37,684 nucleotides of DNA from Candidatus Gastranaerophilales bacterium (GTDB taxonomy: Bacteria; Cyanobacteriota; Vampirovibrionia; Gastranaerophilales; Gastranaerophilaceae). Below are positions 5,395 to 10,159 of the stretch, piece by piece; within the stretch, counting starts at the first letter, position 1; every line of letters begins with the position of its first letter. Below the pieces are notes generated by a model. The model ran no database searches. It saw only the letters and a program-made list of their open reading frames with translations, and had not been told where the DNA came from. The DNA is taken from NCBI GenBank assembly GCA_944323725.1, contig CALUTP010000010.1, positions 1-37,684 of the forward strand, written 5' to 3'. The position numbers were made by a program, and so were the translations under genes.

Positions 5395-6918
5395 ATGAAT
5401 TTAGATAGTGCGATAGATAGTTTTTTATCACCGATAGCCGATAAGATTTCAGGGATTATATTCAGCCACGTGACAATTCATGGGGTCAGGGTTGAATTTC
5501 TTATTGCTCTATTAATGATTGCAGCATTTTATTTTACTTTCCGTACCAAGTTTATCGGAGTGTGGGGATTTAGGCATGCGTTAAATCTTATTACAAAAAA
5601 TTATGAGCATAAAGACATTATTATAAAAAAGAAAAAAGGTGAAGTCTCATCTTTTCAAGCATTGACAGCTACAATTTCAGCGTCGGCAGGTATTGGAAAT
5701 GTTGCAGGTTCAGCCGCTGCAGTTTCAGTAGGCGGACCGGGTGTAATTTTTTGGATGATTATTGCAGGTTTTTTCTCTATGGCGTTAAAATTTGCAGAGG
5801 TTTTGTTAGGGTTAAAATTCCGTCAGATTAATAAAGACGGTACTGTTGCAGGCGGTCCTATGTATTATATTCAATCAGGGCTAAAAAATCATAAAATACT
5901 CGGTAAATTTTCTCCGTATCTTGCAAAAATTTATGCAGTATGTTGTATTTTTGCAATGATAGGCGGATGGAATTTATTCCAGATAAATGCTATGACTACT
6001 CAAATTACTGAGGTTACAGGCGGCGATAAAAGTTTTTTTGCAAATCAAAGTTGGCTTTTAGGATTGATAGTGGCAGTGATTACTTATTTCACTATTATTG
6101 GTGGTATTAAGGCTATAGGTAAGTTTACGTCAAAAGTAACTCCTGCTATGTGTACATTGTATGTCGCTTCAGCTTTTGTTGTTTGTATTATGAATATTCA
6201 TCATTTACCGCATACAATTCATACGATTATAACTGAGGCATTTAAGCCAAGAGCAATGGAAGGTGGAATGTTTGCTTGTATGTTATGGGGATTTAGGCGT
6301 GCAATGTTTGCAAATGAAGCTGGTTTAGGCACTGCTCCTATTGCGTTTTCGGCGGTTAAAACTAATAAGCCAGTTGCGCAAGCTTTCATTGCCATGCTTC
6401 AGCCATTTGTAGATACGGTAATTGTTGGATCAGCTACGGCTTTTGTGATTGTTGTGAGTGGTGTCTATTTGCAAAATACAGGGCTTGCAGGGATTGAGCT
6501 TACTTCAAAAGCTTTTGGAACTGTTTGTCCGTTTTTCCCTATATTATTAACTTTTATGGCAAGCTGTTTTGTTTTGTCGACTATGCTATGCGGTTCATAT
6601 TATGGAATTAAGGGATGGACGTTTTTATTTGGCGATACAAAATTGACAACTAGGACTTTTCAGGTTATATATTGTATATTCATTGTAATTGGTTCAGCAA
6701 TGAACTTTAAAAGTATAATAAATCTTTCGGATGCCTTTACTTTGTTTTTAGCTGTTCCAAACTTGATAGCAGTTTTCATACTTTCGGATGTTGTTATGAA
6801 AGAATTGAAGCGTTATTGTAGAAAATATAATGTAGGCTTATTTAAAAATAAAAGCGAAAAAGAGGAGATAGAAGAATATGAAGAAAAATTGTCTGGAGAT
6901 AGTAAGACAAAAATGTGA
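5395..6918 (+). CDS. Sodium:alanine/glycine symporter (AGCS family)
   Basis: Inner-membrane amino-acid carrier of 507 residues that couples alanine or glycine uptake to Na+ (or H+) in characterised relatives. Family hallmarks are GGPMYYIQSGL (about residues 154-164), the region around SASAGIGNVAGSAAAVSVGG (about 96-115), and FANEAGLGTAPIAFSAVKTN (about 303-322). Hydrophobic segments run nearly to residue 480. The C-terminus is charged and cytoplasmic; its last 14 codons overlap the start of the uracil-DNA glycosylase gene, so the two are almost certainly co-transcribed. Start ATG at 5395 fits the N-terminal amphipathic segment seen in the family and lies 9 nt after a -10 box. Substrate choice among small amino acids is not resolved. 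Confidence 0.93.
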   Translation: MNLDSAIDSFLSPIADKISGIIFSHVTIHGVRVEFLIALLMIAAFYFTFRTKFIGVWGFRHALNLITKNYEHKDIIIKKKKGEVSSFQALTATISASAGIGNVAGSAAAVSVGGPGVIFWMIIAGFFSMALKFAEVLLGLKFRQINKDGTVAGGPMYYIQSGLKNHKILGKFSPYLAKIYAVCCIFAMIGGWNLFQINAMTTQITEVTGGDKSFFANQSWLLGLIVAVITYFTIIGGIKAIGKFTSKVTPAMCTLYVASAFVVCIMNIHHLPHTIHTIITEAFKPRAMEGGMFACMLWGFRRAMFANEAGLGTAPIAFSAVKTNKPVAQAFIAMLQPFVDTVIVGSATAFVIVVSGVYLQNTGLAGIELTSKAFGTVCPFFPILLTFMASCFVLSTMLCGSYYGIKGWTFLFGDTKLTTRTFQVIYCIFIVIGSAMNFKSIINLSDAFTLFLAVPNLIAVFILSDVVMKELKRYCRKYNVGLFKNKSEKEEIEEYEEKLSGDSKTKM

Positions 6919-7510
6919 AAGCTGTAATGGCTGTGCCCTTGCAAAATCACGTAATAATGTGGTTTTCTCTGATGGAAATCCGTCAACTGCAAAAATCGTT
7001 TTAATCGGAGAAGCTCCGGGCGAGATGGAAGATGAATGCGGAAGACCATTTGTCGGCAGAGCAGGGCAATTGTTGAATGAATTTTTAGCTGATGCTGGTA
7101 TTTCAAGAGATGAAGATTTGTATATTATAAATACGGTTAAATGCAGACCTCCTGAAAATAGAGTACCTACTGATGAAGAAAAATCAGCATGTCATAAATT
7201 CCTTGTTGCTCAAATTGATATTATAAAGCCTCAGGCAATTATTCTATGTGGTGCTACTGCTTTGAAATCATTTGTTGAATTGGATAAAAAACAAACTATT
7301 TCAAAGGTCAGAGGTAAATGGATGAATATTATGGTAGATGGTGTTGAATATAAAGCTATGACAATTTTCCATCCATCTTATCTTTTAAGGAATCACTCTA
7401 TGGAAGAGGGTTCTCCAAGAAGACTTATGCAACAAGATTTATCAGAAATTAAAAATACTATTTTCCCTGATAAAATTATTGATGAAAATCGTGAACTTGT
7501 TATGTTATAA
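6878..7510 (+). CDS. Uracil-DNA glycosylase, family 4 (Fe-S type)
   Basis: DNA repair enzyme that removes uracil from DNA, 210 residues. Family 4 features are all visible: the four Fe-S cluster cysteines C16, C19, C89 and C105; motif A GEAPGEMEDECGRPFVG (44-60); NTVKCRPP (86-92); and the C-terminal HPSYLLR motif. The ATG at 6878 has an upstream AGGAGA and overlaps the symporter's 3' end by 41 nt in another frame, suggesting translational coupling. An intrinsic terminator follows 15 nt after the stop. In some bacteria similar proteins replace the family 1 enzyme Ung; whether that is true here cannot be told from one window. Confidence 0.94.
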   Translation: MKKNCLEIVRQKCESCNGCALAKSRNNVVFSDGNPSTAKIVLIGEAPGEMEDECGRPFVGRAGQLLNEFLADAGISRDEDLYIINTVKCRPPENRVPTDEEKSACHKFLVAQIDIIKPQAIILCGATALKSFVELDKKQTISKVRGKWMNIMVDGVEYKAMTIFHPSYLLRNHSMEEGSPRRLMQQDLSEIKNTIFPDKIIDENRELVML

Positions 7511-7524
7511 GGTATATATTTATT

Positions 7525-7560
7525 AAAAAATAGACTTCCTTTTAGGAAGTCTATTTTTTT
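7525..7560. terminator. Bidirectional intrinsic terminator
   Basis: Perfect 16-bp stem (7525-7540 with 7544-7559), a three-base loop, and T runs on both sides. It lies between the convergent uracil-DNA glycosylase gene and the orphan gene at 7551-8906. The stop codon of the latter (7551-7553) sits inside the stem. Confidence 0.9.
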
Positions 7561-8906
7561 GTTGTATTACTTTCTGCGTTGAGAATTCCAGGTTCTAGAT
7601 CCGAACCAGTAACGAGTTTTCTGAAAGCAAATTGAGCTTTTGGCAGGCAGTACGCTAGTAAGAAACTACTTAGGCCTACATTTGCTAAAATATTTATCGA
7701 TTTGACAAACTTTGCACGTTTTGCAAATTTATCAACCATTTTGGTACCAGAAGGTGTTCCAAGTGCTTTTTTAGCAAAGGCTTCTATGTCATTGCGAAAT
7801 TCTGCTAGTTTTTTCATATTAATGTAAGCTCTTGGGTCTCTTACCTCTTCATTTAGCATTGTTATTTTTTCAAATTTATTTGCATACTTTACAAAAAGAC
7901 TTTTTGGATTGTTATCAATATAATCAAGCATTTCTTTTGGATTTGCTGATTTTGGAAGTTCTAATTTCCCTTCTTTTATCTGTTTAAGAAATTCTTTATC
8001 CTCAAGTATAAGCGGATCAAGCTTTACATCAAGATTAAATGCTTTTAGGGAGGCTTTATTAAGTATTTTTTCAATTTGTTTTGGTGCAACATAATTAAGA
8101 TACATCATTCCTGCCATTTTGAAACTTATATCAATGGCCTCATTTCTATTACCATCAGCTCCTTTTCTTGCTGTTAAAATCCTACCTAAAGCATATCCGC
8201 CATCTATAGTTTCCATTTTTTCAAGTGTTGAAAAGTTTGCTATATTTGAAATGAAATTGTTTCCAAAACTTATTTTATTTTGTTTTTTTAATGACATTCT
8301 TGCAAATGTGTCGTTATTTAGACCTTCAAAATTGGTATATTGATTTTGATTTTGTTTTTCTTTTTGAGCTTTAAGTTTTGCAATTTTATTAGCGGATGAT
8401 GCAAAAATCATTTTTGGAAGTATAAATCCAATAAATGCTATAGGAATTGCTGTAGCAGCTATAAATTTAGCAGCAAGCATTTTTTCATAAACATTTTTGT
8501 TTCCAGCAACTTTTTTTAAATCATTAAGAGCATTTTCTATAGCTTGTTTTGATTTTGAATTTTTATTTGCTATTTTAGTGAATCGTTTGATATTTTCATT
8601 TATTCCCTGAATACCTTTTTCTTCTTTAAATAGTTTTAGGTTTACTTTAGGATTAAACCCTTGTTTTTTTATTAATATATTTACAATTTTGTCTATTAAT
8701 GGTATACCACCAAGCCATACTGCAGAAGTGGCGTATTCATCTAAGAATCTTTCTCTTGTTGCAAGTTTATCTATTTCTGGATCATCTTTATTTTGCTTGT
8801 GAGTTAAATAAATTTTTGACGGAACTTCTATCCCGCAATCTCTGACCAGTAGGGGGTATATGCTGTTATTATTGCCAATAGCTGATATTATTTTAGTTAG
8901 TATCAT
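7551..8906 (-). CDS. Unrecognised protein with two or more membrane segments
   Basis: A 451-residue protein I cannot assign to a known family. It has a hydrophobic stretch around residues 163-188 (ATAIPIAFIGFILPKMIFA) and another near 415-433 (ANVGLSSFLLAYCLPKA), with lysine-rich soluble regions between. A Gln/Lys/Asn-rich linker at about 180-215 leads into NKISFGNNF, which resembles the F-G motif in other orphan proteins of this window. The start ATG at 8906 has a good GGAG 8 nt upstream. A 227-nt leader with strong secondary structure separates it from the kinase-like gene on the same strand. Probably lineage-restricted; a role at the membrane is inference only. Confidence 0.75.
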   Translation of the reverse strand: MILTKIISAIGNNNSIYPLLVRDCGIEVPSKIYLTHKQNKDDPEIDKLATRERFLDEYATSAVWLGGIPLIDKIVNILIKKQGFNPKVNLKLFKEEKGIQGINENIKRFTKIANKNSKSKQAIENALNDLKKVAGNKNVYEKMLAAKFIAATAIPIAFIGFILPKMIFASSANKIAKLKAQKEKQNQNQYTNFEGLNNDTFARMSLKKQNKISFGNNFISNIANFSTLEKMETIDGGYALGRILTARKGADGNRNEAIDISFKMAGMMYLNYVAPKQIEKILNKASLKAFNLDVKLDPLILEDKEFLKQIKEGKLELPKSANPKEMLDYIDNNPKSLFVKYANKFEKITMLNEEVRDPRAYINMKKLAEFRNDIEAFAKKALGTPSGTKMVDKFAKRAKFVKSINILANVGLSSFLLAYCLPKAQFAFRKLVTGSDLEPGILNAESNTTKK

Positions 8907-8951
8907 AAATTATCTCCAATTCTTTTGTCTATACAATCTTTTACGCGGGGT

Positions 8952-9054
8952 TCCTGAAAAGACTGTTAAAAAGAATTGAACTAATTAAAATTGCGCACCA
9001 TCAACTCTACAGCCTTTTCAGGATGCTATGATGGTTATGATGCAATTTTAAATT
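8952..9054 (-). promoter_or_regulatory. Candidate pseudoknotted leader RNA upstream of the orphan membrane gene
   Basis: Two interlocking inverted repeats lie in the intergenic RNA. Stem one pairs 8952-8966 with 9009-9023 (14 of 15 bases). Stem two pairs 8997-9002 with 9030-9035 (six of six) and 8983-8994 with 9042-9054 (12 bp plus one bulge). Because one arm of stem one lies inside the loop of stem two, they form a pseudoknot or two alternative folds. No U-run follows, so it is not a plain terminator. It could be a riboswitch-like leader, a protein-binding site or a small RNA. Confidence 0.4.
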
Positions 9055-9133
9055 TTCTAAAATTTCCATAAGTTTTTCCTGCTACCAGATTAGCAGATAC
9101 ATATTTGTTTTGCAAGTTAGTTTTTACAATTTT

Positions 9134-10159
9134 TTATAATAATTCAGGATAAAGATTTATAAATTCTTGATATGCGGGTTGTGCAAACTCAAGGTTAGAG
9201 TGTCTGTCAAAATCTTTATAAATAATGGCAGCGTTGCCATTAGTGCGTTGCAGGTCATGTTTTTCAGATGCTGTGAATACTTTTTGAATTATTTTTTGTG
9301 AGGATGTTAGAAGGGTTTCTTTTTCTTTTATATTCAGTTTATCGTAAACAAGTTTATGTGTAAGTGGATCTAGCATAAGGTTAATCATGCTGTCTGTGCC
9401 GTTAAAAGGTTCAATAGAACCATTATCACTGTGATGATACCATAAATCTATTATGCTGATATTCTTTTTATCATTATCAACAATTAAGTTGTTAGGGTTC
9501 ATTATATCTATTTCACAATCAGTATACTTATTTAATTTATGAATATTTTCAGCGAGAATATCAAAACTATTTTGTGGAAATTCTGAAAGTTCATTAATTT
9601 TACGAGCAATAAGTTTTGCATTGTTATATGTTAATGAATCTGTTCCCTGCTCAATTCCTTTTATTTTTTCTGCCCAATCTGGTAATGAGTGGCTTTTTCC
9701 TAAATTTTTTTTGGTTATATAAAATCCCTTATTATTAGTGGCAACATATTGACCGAAGTTCGGTGCTAATTCGTTTTGTGGCTCTGAAATGATAGGTGTT
9801 CTTATAAAATCTCTAGGTGTAAAATGTTTTCTTTCTATTCGTATAAGATAATCTTCAACCATTGGAATTTCATAGACATCTGCATTGAATCCTCGTCCTA
9901 TAAAGTTTTTAGGATTAGATATTGTAGAAAGAATAACATTTTTTAATGACTTGTTTTTATATGCTTTATGTAATGATATTAGAAAATCATTGTAATTTAG
10001 TCTTTTACCAAAATTTATATTATTAAATGTTGCATTGTATCCCAATAAATATTTTTGATTAGTGTTATTATCAATACTTTTGTAAGAATATGTTTTATTT
10101 TGGCTGGAAATTTTAGGGGTATAAGTTTTATATTGTGTTGAAATAGGCTGAATTATCAT
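9134..10159 (-). CDS. Divergent protein-kinase-fold protein
   Basis: A 341-residue protein with a recognisable but degenerate kinase-like core. FIGRGFNADVYEI (86-98) looks like the glycine-rich loop. EIDIMNPNNLIVD (216-228) fits the catalytic loop, with D218 as the catalytic Asp and N223 as the metal-binding Asn. IIDLW (236-240) is in the place of DFG, with D238. The expected beta-3 lysine position reads YLIRIER, so Arg107 may replace it. The first 55 residues are Asn/Tyr/Thr/Ser-rich and end in NINFGKR (47-53). Phosphotransfer to small molecules, proteins, or loss of catalysis are all open. It precedes the orphan membrane gene on the same strand. Confidence 0.6.
   Translation of the reverse strand: MIIQPISTQYKTYTPKISSQNKTYSYKSIDNNTNQKYLLGYNATFNNINFGKRLNYNDFLISLHKAYKNKSLKNVILSTISNPKNFIGRGFNADVYEIPMVEDYLIRIERKHFTPRDFIRTPIISEPQNELAPNFGQYVATNNKGFYITKKNLGKSHSLPDWAEKIKGIEQGTDSLTYNNAKLIARKINELSEFPQNSFDILAENIHKLNKYTDCEIDIMNPNNLIVDNDKKNISIIDLWYHHSDNGSIEPFNGTDSMINLMLDPLTHKLVYDKLNIKEKETLLTSSQKIIQKVFTASEKHDLQRTNGNAAIIYKDFDRHSNLEFAQPAYQEFINLYPELL

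Follow-up and report, generated by a model that had tools for sequence, protein, structure and literature searches.

In enteric bacteria, the his operon attenuator (HisL; RF00514) combines a short ORF containing a run of His codons with mutually exclusive stems, the last of which is a terminator. The position of a ribosome on a leader ORF can also free or hide the ribosome site of the next gene, as in the ermC translational attenuator, which answers an antibiotic-stalled ribosome. His-codon attenuation is also found outside Proteobacteria: two published reports describe leader peptides with His codons upstream of hisS/hisZ in bacilli and, in some Firmicutes, upstream of his operons (PMC2965389, PMC9413887). 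In histidine-auxotrophic Firmicutes, according to the second of these, a His T-box or HisR controls the histidine transporters hisXYZ and yuiF (PMC9413887). Among the open-access papers searched, we found none on the element described here, and none that pairs Gastranaerophilales with a leader peptide.

The window, i.e. the whole stretch of 37,684 nucleotides that was analysed, has its closest relatives mostly among Candidatus Gastranaerophilales, gut relatives of Cyanobacteria. Its gene mem7551 is a single gene, convergent with a UDG-family gene (6878-7510). We propose that positions 8913-9069 of the minus strand are very probably a histidine-codon leader-peptide attenuator for mem7551, with ribosome stalling and the direction of control read from sequence comparison and folding models. 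The features concerned are the following, in the direction of transcription.

9087..9115, minus strand: promoter-like element (putative function), TTGCAA - 17 nt - TAATCT, ending 17 nt ahead of the leader ORF.
9007..9069, minus strand: leader ORF of 20 codons, MEILENLKLHHNHHSILKRL, with the His-codon run CAT CAT AAC CAT CAT and the stop codon TAG.
9042..9051, minus strand: region 1, 5' arm of stem 1:2 (arm C of the preliminary description), a perfect complement of 8985-8994.
9001..9023, minus strand: region 2, 5' arm of stem 2:3 (putative antiterminator or anti-sequestor), beginning a few nt past the last His codon.
8985..8994, minus strand: region 2c, 3' arm of stem 1:2.
8952..8980, minus strand: region 3, which provides the 3' arms for stem 2:3 and the 5' arms for stem 3:4 (TTCAATTCTTTT, 8980-8969; ACAGTCTTTT, 8966-8957).
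8933..8942, minus strand: upper part of region 4, AAAAGATTGT, pairing with 8957-8966; without a U-run here.
8913..8926, minus strand: lower part of region 4, AAAAGAATTGGAGA, pairing with 8969-8980; holds the mem7551 ribosome site GGAG (8917-8914).
7551..8906, minus strand: mem7551, the putatively regulated gene; 451 aa, helical, probably membrane, no family assigned.

The inverted repeats and the 20-codon ORF of the preliminary description are present as described. The arms 8952-8966/9009-9023 (15 nt) are 93% complementary, and those at 8985-8994/9042-9051 (10 nt) are perfectly so. A third perfect set of 10 nt, 8917-8926/8969-8978, which that description did not contain, ties the region to the mem7551 ribosome site: in the lower part of stem 3:4, TTCAATTCTTTT (8980-8969) pairs with AAAAGAATTGGA (8926-8915), which contains this site. 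The RNA of 8930-9080 (minus strand) folds at -34.2 kcal/mol, compared with -23.96 +/- 3.48 for shuffled sequences (z -2.94; 1 of 200 shuffles as good), a statistic that by itself is modest evidence. The absence of a terminator U-run, also claimed initially, was confirmed, with no terminator-like site found in 8880-9180.

Conservation of the stretch across genomes is much stronger evidence than the fold of a single sequence. Among 39 genomes searched, the leader stretch was matched in DNA at E <= 1e-16 in all 13 genomes of the same genus, counting its own, and in one genome from a different genus at 1e-13. A mem7551 orthologue directly follows the match in each of 13 fetched neighbourhoods; the initial proposal of a structured leader of the membrane-protein gene is borne out. 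Hexamers resembling TTGcA/TTGaA and TAatAT are aligned across the genus at the promoter-like element, and a consensus promoter scan did not report them at 9087..9115. Further upstream, 9134-10159 (minus strand) codes for a 341-aa protein without a Pfam match, and this gene was detected in just 2 of 13 fetched genus or sister neighbourhoods, suggesting that it was gained recently or is often lost.

The most constant part of the element is the run of His codons. In the window and the 13 leaders aligned with it (14/14), the ORF ends in LK[RG]L and has at least three His codons; in one of them, L020, exactly one codon is missing, as an in-frame gap. A small ORF with at least three His codons precedes the mem7551 orthologue in all 80 named loci, 77 of them scored by a script that also required HH and three read by eye, which agrees with the early suggestion that the ORF may encode a leader peptide. 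Such ORFs were also present in 30/30 (scored by eye) and 35/35 loci (65/65), partly overlapping the 80, and in 7/7 further loci (L236-L239 and L241-L243), these locus sets again overlapping in part. Of the 1127 residues encoded by 54 non-redundant leaders, 242 are histidine, compared with 174 of 9391 (1.85%) in 25 proteins of the window. The peptides are otherwise variable (MENQILKLHHHHHHSDLRRAVNW, MFTPSVKRHHHNHHHCH and MENLIQKKLHHQHR, the latter two given up to the stop, MNTLFTQAERHHHHN and others), and the position of the stop codon differs among relatives. Constant His codons in a variable peptide would be expected of codon-run sensing and not of an arrest peptide.

In many members of the genus, there is no clear ribosome site before the leader ORF. 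The ORFs of L009, L019, L012 and other genus leaders, likewise without one, begin ~9-10 nt past a -10-like hexamer, which suggests that several of them may start nearly leaderless. A separate arrangement was seen at L099 (G057:C93:1440-1990), where two tandem His-rich small ORFs lie ahead of a mem7551 homologue of 32% identity, the first of them (MNTLFTQAERHHHHN) being followed by a terminator-like hairpin.

We examined the stems for compensatory changes in orthologous regions, and the outcome favours structure. The alignment (A3) has 41 rows, the window and 40 of the 54 non-redundant leaders. Eight leaders were omitted for divergent structure (L136, L148, L172, L173, L185, L190, L199 and L200) and six for long gaps (L135, L137, L138, L143, L155 and L165), so that the double-change counts for stems 2:3 and 3:4 lean to one structural class. 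With that bias, the 22 pairs of stem 2:3 have 91.1% of cells paired and 83 double-change cells, as against 36.9 when shuffled and 11-20 with slid partners. For stem 3:4, 89.6% are paired and double changes number 62, where shuffling gives 21.4 and sliding 2-28. Two of five measures were unremarkable for stem 2:3: the number of pairs changed on both sides, which 84 of 500 shuffles reached, and that of additional pair types, which 287 of 500 reached. For stem 3:4, this holds for one of five, pair types (71 of 500).

Alignment-free tests on all 54 non-redundant leaders asked how each arm pairs with its own partner. The own partner was better than the median partner from other species in 52/54 leaders for stem 2:3, in 45/54 for stem 3:4 (L199 having no usable region 4) and in 47/54 for stem 1:2. 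It was in the best 5% for only 13 leaders (2:3) and six (1:2), sequence being shared among related leaders. In the genus of the window, none of the 22 pairs of stem 2:3 shows a double change; as the stem is nearly invariant there, the evidence from covariation comes from the relatives. Taken over the family, the aligned sequences indicate that the arms form stems that compete with one another and carry compensatory changes.

The double changes in stem 3:4 lie almost wholly in its upper, terminator part (8 of 10 upper pairs in A3), and in the relatives the upper part of region 4 serves as the 3' arm in a terminator with a U-run. A U-run is present downstream of region 3 in 33/54 family leaders and absent in all five non-redundant members of the genus. 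The lower part, at the ribosome site, is mostly conserved and does not covary, with matched changes outside an invariant core. A complement of the ribosome site spans 12 bp in the window and 9-15 bp in the other members of the genus that were examined, and one of at least 6 bp is found in 53/54 leaders by a permissive criterion under which pairing close to the site counts as well. The case for ribosome-site pairing in the genus comes mostly from conservation.

Stems 1:2 and 2:3 are crossing pairs, as stated in the preliminary description, and their extended forms share nucleotides at about 9001-9004. The interpretation given there is supported in part. In place of the pseudoknot, the two stems are best read as competing alternatives of an attenuator, and it is possible that they form partly at once as a pseudoknot.

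To model the effect of translation, each leader was folded without the part that a ribosome would cover, with the ribosome placed on each His codon or at the stop. In leaders with a T-run, the predicted probability of the terminator hairpin was 0.47 with a stalled ribosome and 0.90 with a ribosome at the stop, the difference being in that direction in 40/41; without translation, it was 0.81. Shuffling the segment exposed by the stall raised the hairpin to 0.86 compared with 0.36 for the real segment, which gave the lower value in 40/41. In 6/6 members of the genus of the window, the ribosome site was more open with a stalled ribosome than with one at the stop (0.62 vs 0.28 for the window); in two of the six, the untranslated RNA was as open at this site as the stalled RNA. 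Over all leaders (54 rows, the window and 53 others, L180 having no recognised ribosome site), the difference in opening between the states is weak (0.39 vs 0.31), which would fit control by termination in most relatives. These models and the conserved pairing suggest translational control of mem7551 in the genus of the window.

The proposed mechanism is as follows. RNA polymerase would start just 5' of the leader ORF, and a ribosome would translate this ORF. When charged tRNA-His is scarce, the ribosome would stall on the CAT codons and cover region 1, leaving region 2 free; region 2 would then pair with region 3, stem 3:4 would be blocked and mem7551 would be expressed. When histidine is ample, the ribosome would reach the TAG codon and cover region 2, and stem 3:4 would form. 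In most relatives, stem 3:4 with its U-run would terminate transcription. In the genus of the window, the U-run has been lost, and the 3:4 stem, extended to 11-15 bp in most members examined, would mask the GGAG of mem7551, with control at translation or by Rho.

A covariance model (R1) was built from A3 and used to search 114 family genomes. It matches 54 of them, once per genome, and all 54 matches are located 5-96 nt upstream of a mem7551 orthologue, 52 of them within 20 nt. R1 misses orthologues with divergent leaders (e.g. in G021 and G055), which nevertheless have the His ORF. A sequence pattern from the window's own genome, CAYCAYNNNCAYCAY, occurs at 13 places and has no specificity alone, and the covariance model was used instead. 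Comparison across genomes shows an ORF with His codons, three competing stems, a single copy per genome and a constant position.

The distribution of the gene is opposed to that of histidine biosynthesis, which points to histidine as the signal. In family genomes, hisB was found in 29/114 and hisD in 33/117; neither was found in the genome of the window. Close mem7551 orthologues (matches at E <= 1e-38) are present in 2/33 genomes with hisD vs 64/84 without it (Fisher p 1e-12, uncorrected for kinship; p 9e-4 at genus level). In 80 further genomes, the figures are 1/12 and 58/68, bringing the total over 197 genomes to 3/45 and 122/152. In g6, g34, g51 and g54, the four genera in which both traits vary, two genomes have both genes compared with 6.6 expected (within-genus shuffling, p 0.0007). 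There are exceptions: G017, G023 and G210 have mem7551 and hisD, and 30 of the 152 genomes without hisD have neither; G221 and G224, which carry mem7551, are outside the hisD test. The hisD match of G210 (G210:C10:29542-30756), where the His-leader gene is present as well, scores 601 bits, compared with about 437-506 in relatives, and is possibly a foreign or contaminating gene. Capture of the leader from a his operon was considered and rejected, as no His-rich ORF of 60 aa or less was found in 18/18 stretches upstream of hisD in prototrophs; upstream of three hisB loci there was one chance-like His-rich ORF. An earlier report describes gut Melainabacteria without histidine and arginine synthesis (PMC3787301).

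Other readings of the element have to be weighed against these data. The nascent His-rich peptide might itself bind a ligand, a metal (Zn or Ni) or a small molecule, and stall the ribosome in place of uncharged tRNA-His. His-rich peptides do bind metals, and LK[RG]L at the C-terminus is constant in the genus and in G013. However, the rest of the peptide varies in the family, the LKRL codons are conserved because they sit in an arm of stem 2:3, and the inverse distribution of the gene and hisD points to histidine; we consider such a peptide sensor improbable. We give still less credence to a pseudoknotted riboswitch or a protein-binding leader in which the small ORF is incidental. The arms could in principle form jointly as a pseudoknot, and the fold is more stable than that of shuffled sequences, but His codons persist in every orthologue read while the arms diverge. 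What is constant in the family is the His-codon run, whereas the arms, the stop position and the C-terminus of the peptide vary, which argues against the ligand riboswitch initially suggested. Moreover, no constant unpaired core resembling an aptamer was seen in A3, and the folding by ribosome state describes a switch set by ribosome position.

The preliminary description also allowed for an independent small RNA encoded in the spacer, and promoter-like hexamers do lie directly upstream. A single R1 copy directly before the same gene in every matching genome, and the presence of the mem7551 ribosome site within the element, make this the least probable reading, with a very slight chance of being right. 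The histidine-codon attenuator, by comparison, is the reading to which the constant codons, the competing stems and the distribution of the gene all point.

An AlphaFold2 model of mem7551 based on 34 aligned orthologues, the window included, is all-helical (mean pLDDT 80), and hydrophobic stretches seen in its sequence suggest that the protein is probably in the membrane. It has no Pfam match, no NCBIfam match near the cut-off and no solved relative by sequence in a PDB search; Foldseek gave none at E <= 0.001, and the best Z with VIA, 6.6, is within the range of common helical arrangements. As there is no fold or family match, its function can be approached only through its regulation and distribution. 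It perhaps serves histidine-dependent cells, possibly in histidine acquisition, and would benefit cells that depend on outside histidine; acquisition is suggested because of the parallel with histidine-responsive transporter control in auxotrophic Firmicutes.

Paralogues of mem7551 are ~29% identical, and one is encoded in this genome (G000:C7:3304-4536). They are preceded by a leader ORF ending in NLxWGL in 35/36 loci, with a CGA Arg codon in 32 of these 35. The leaders observed include L122 (G000:C7:4430-4990), L100-L123 and L224-L235, e.g. MTKRIRRNSIIKANAPIVKLMNLIWGL, usually with a hairpin inside the ORF. In several, a stretch past the Arg codons is complementary to one just before the ribosome site, and the own partner is better than the cross-species median in 23/31. 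In L230-L234, another small ORF that contains Arg codons (e.g. MKFIQNRRSYKLGGFTR), followed by a terminator-like hairpin, precedes the NLxWGL leader, forming tandem leaders. Most genomes with these paralogues have no strong argG match; such a match was found in 10/117 genomes, some of which still have the paralogue. The paralogue leader is possibly an arginine-codon attenuator, and the paralogue may be opposed in distribution to arginine biosynthesis; we put both forward as leads only. As a tentative proposal, with the balance of probability against it, mem7551 might found a new membrane family that scavenges cationic amino acids in gut Gastranaerophilales, with the His branch, induced through His-codon attenuators when histidine runs short, replacing lost histidine synthesis and the paralogue branch perhaps doing the same for arginine.

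The mechanism proposed here is of a known kind, amino-acid attenuation; what is new is the gene under control, the group of hosts and the shift from a terminator to masking of a ribosome site. It would extend leader-peptide attenuation by an amino acid to non-photosynthetic relatives of Cyanobacteria, one lineage of which has apparently replaced transcription termination by masking of the ribosome site and retained the same arms. As the switch names an amino acid and the distribution of the gene opposes histidine biosynthesis, an orphan family of membrane proteins gains a testable function, and we suggest codon-run leaders as an annotation aid for genes without known function in uncultured lineages.

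Compared with the enteric his attenuator, the locus similarly has several close His codons in a short ORF, whose translation is predicted, and antiterminator and terminator stems that exclude each other. In the enteric leader, as in those of the relatives, the last stem is a terminator, whereas in the genus of the window it would mask a ribosome site and has no U-run. The gene that would be controlled here encodes an orphan membrane protein, in a genome in which neither hisB nor hisD was found, and is not one of the histidine biosynthesis genes. No Rfam family matched the window at its gathering score, and the RF00514 His_leader model scored 26.1 bits on the relative L035, exactly on the leader (E 1.7; cut-off 49); by score, the leader falls outside His_leader, but it is predicted to function in the same way. 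The His leader peptides of Firmicutes represent the same attenuation in another phylum and before other genes. The T-box and HisR systems share with the locus the proposed logic, an auxotroph that keeps histidine-responsive control on an acquisition gene; they differ in using a T-box or a repressor as sensor for known transporters, where this locus would use a leader peptide. As in a translational attenuator, a stem of the leader is predicted to mask the ribosome site of the gene under control. A parallel in this respect is ermC, in which the ribosome site of the following gene is likewise exposed or hidden according to where the ribosome is on the leader ORF, although the signal there is an antibiotic-stalled ribosome and here would be a codon run for one amino acid.
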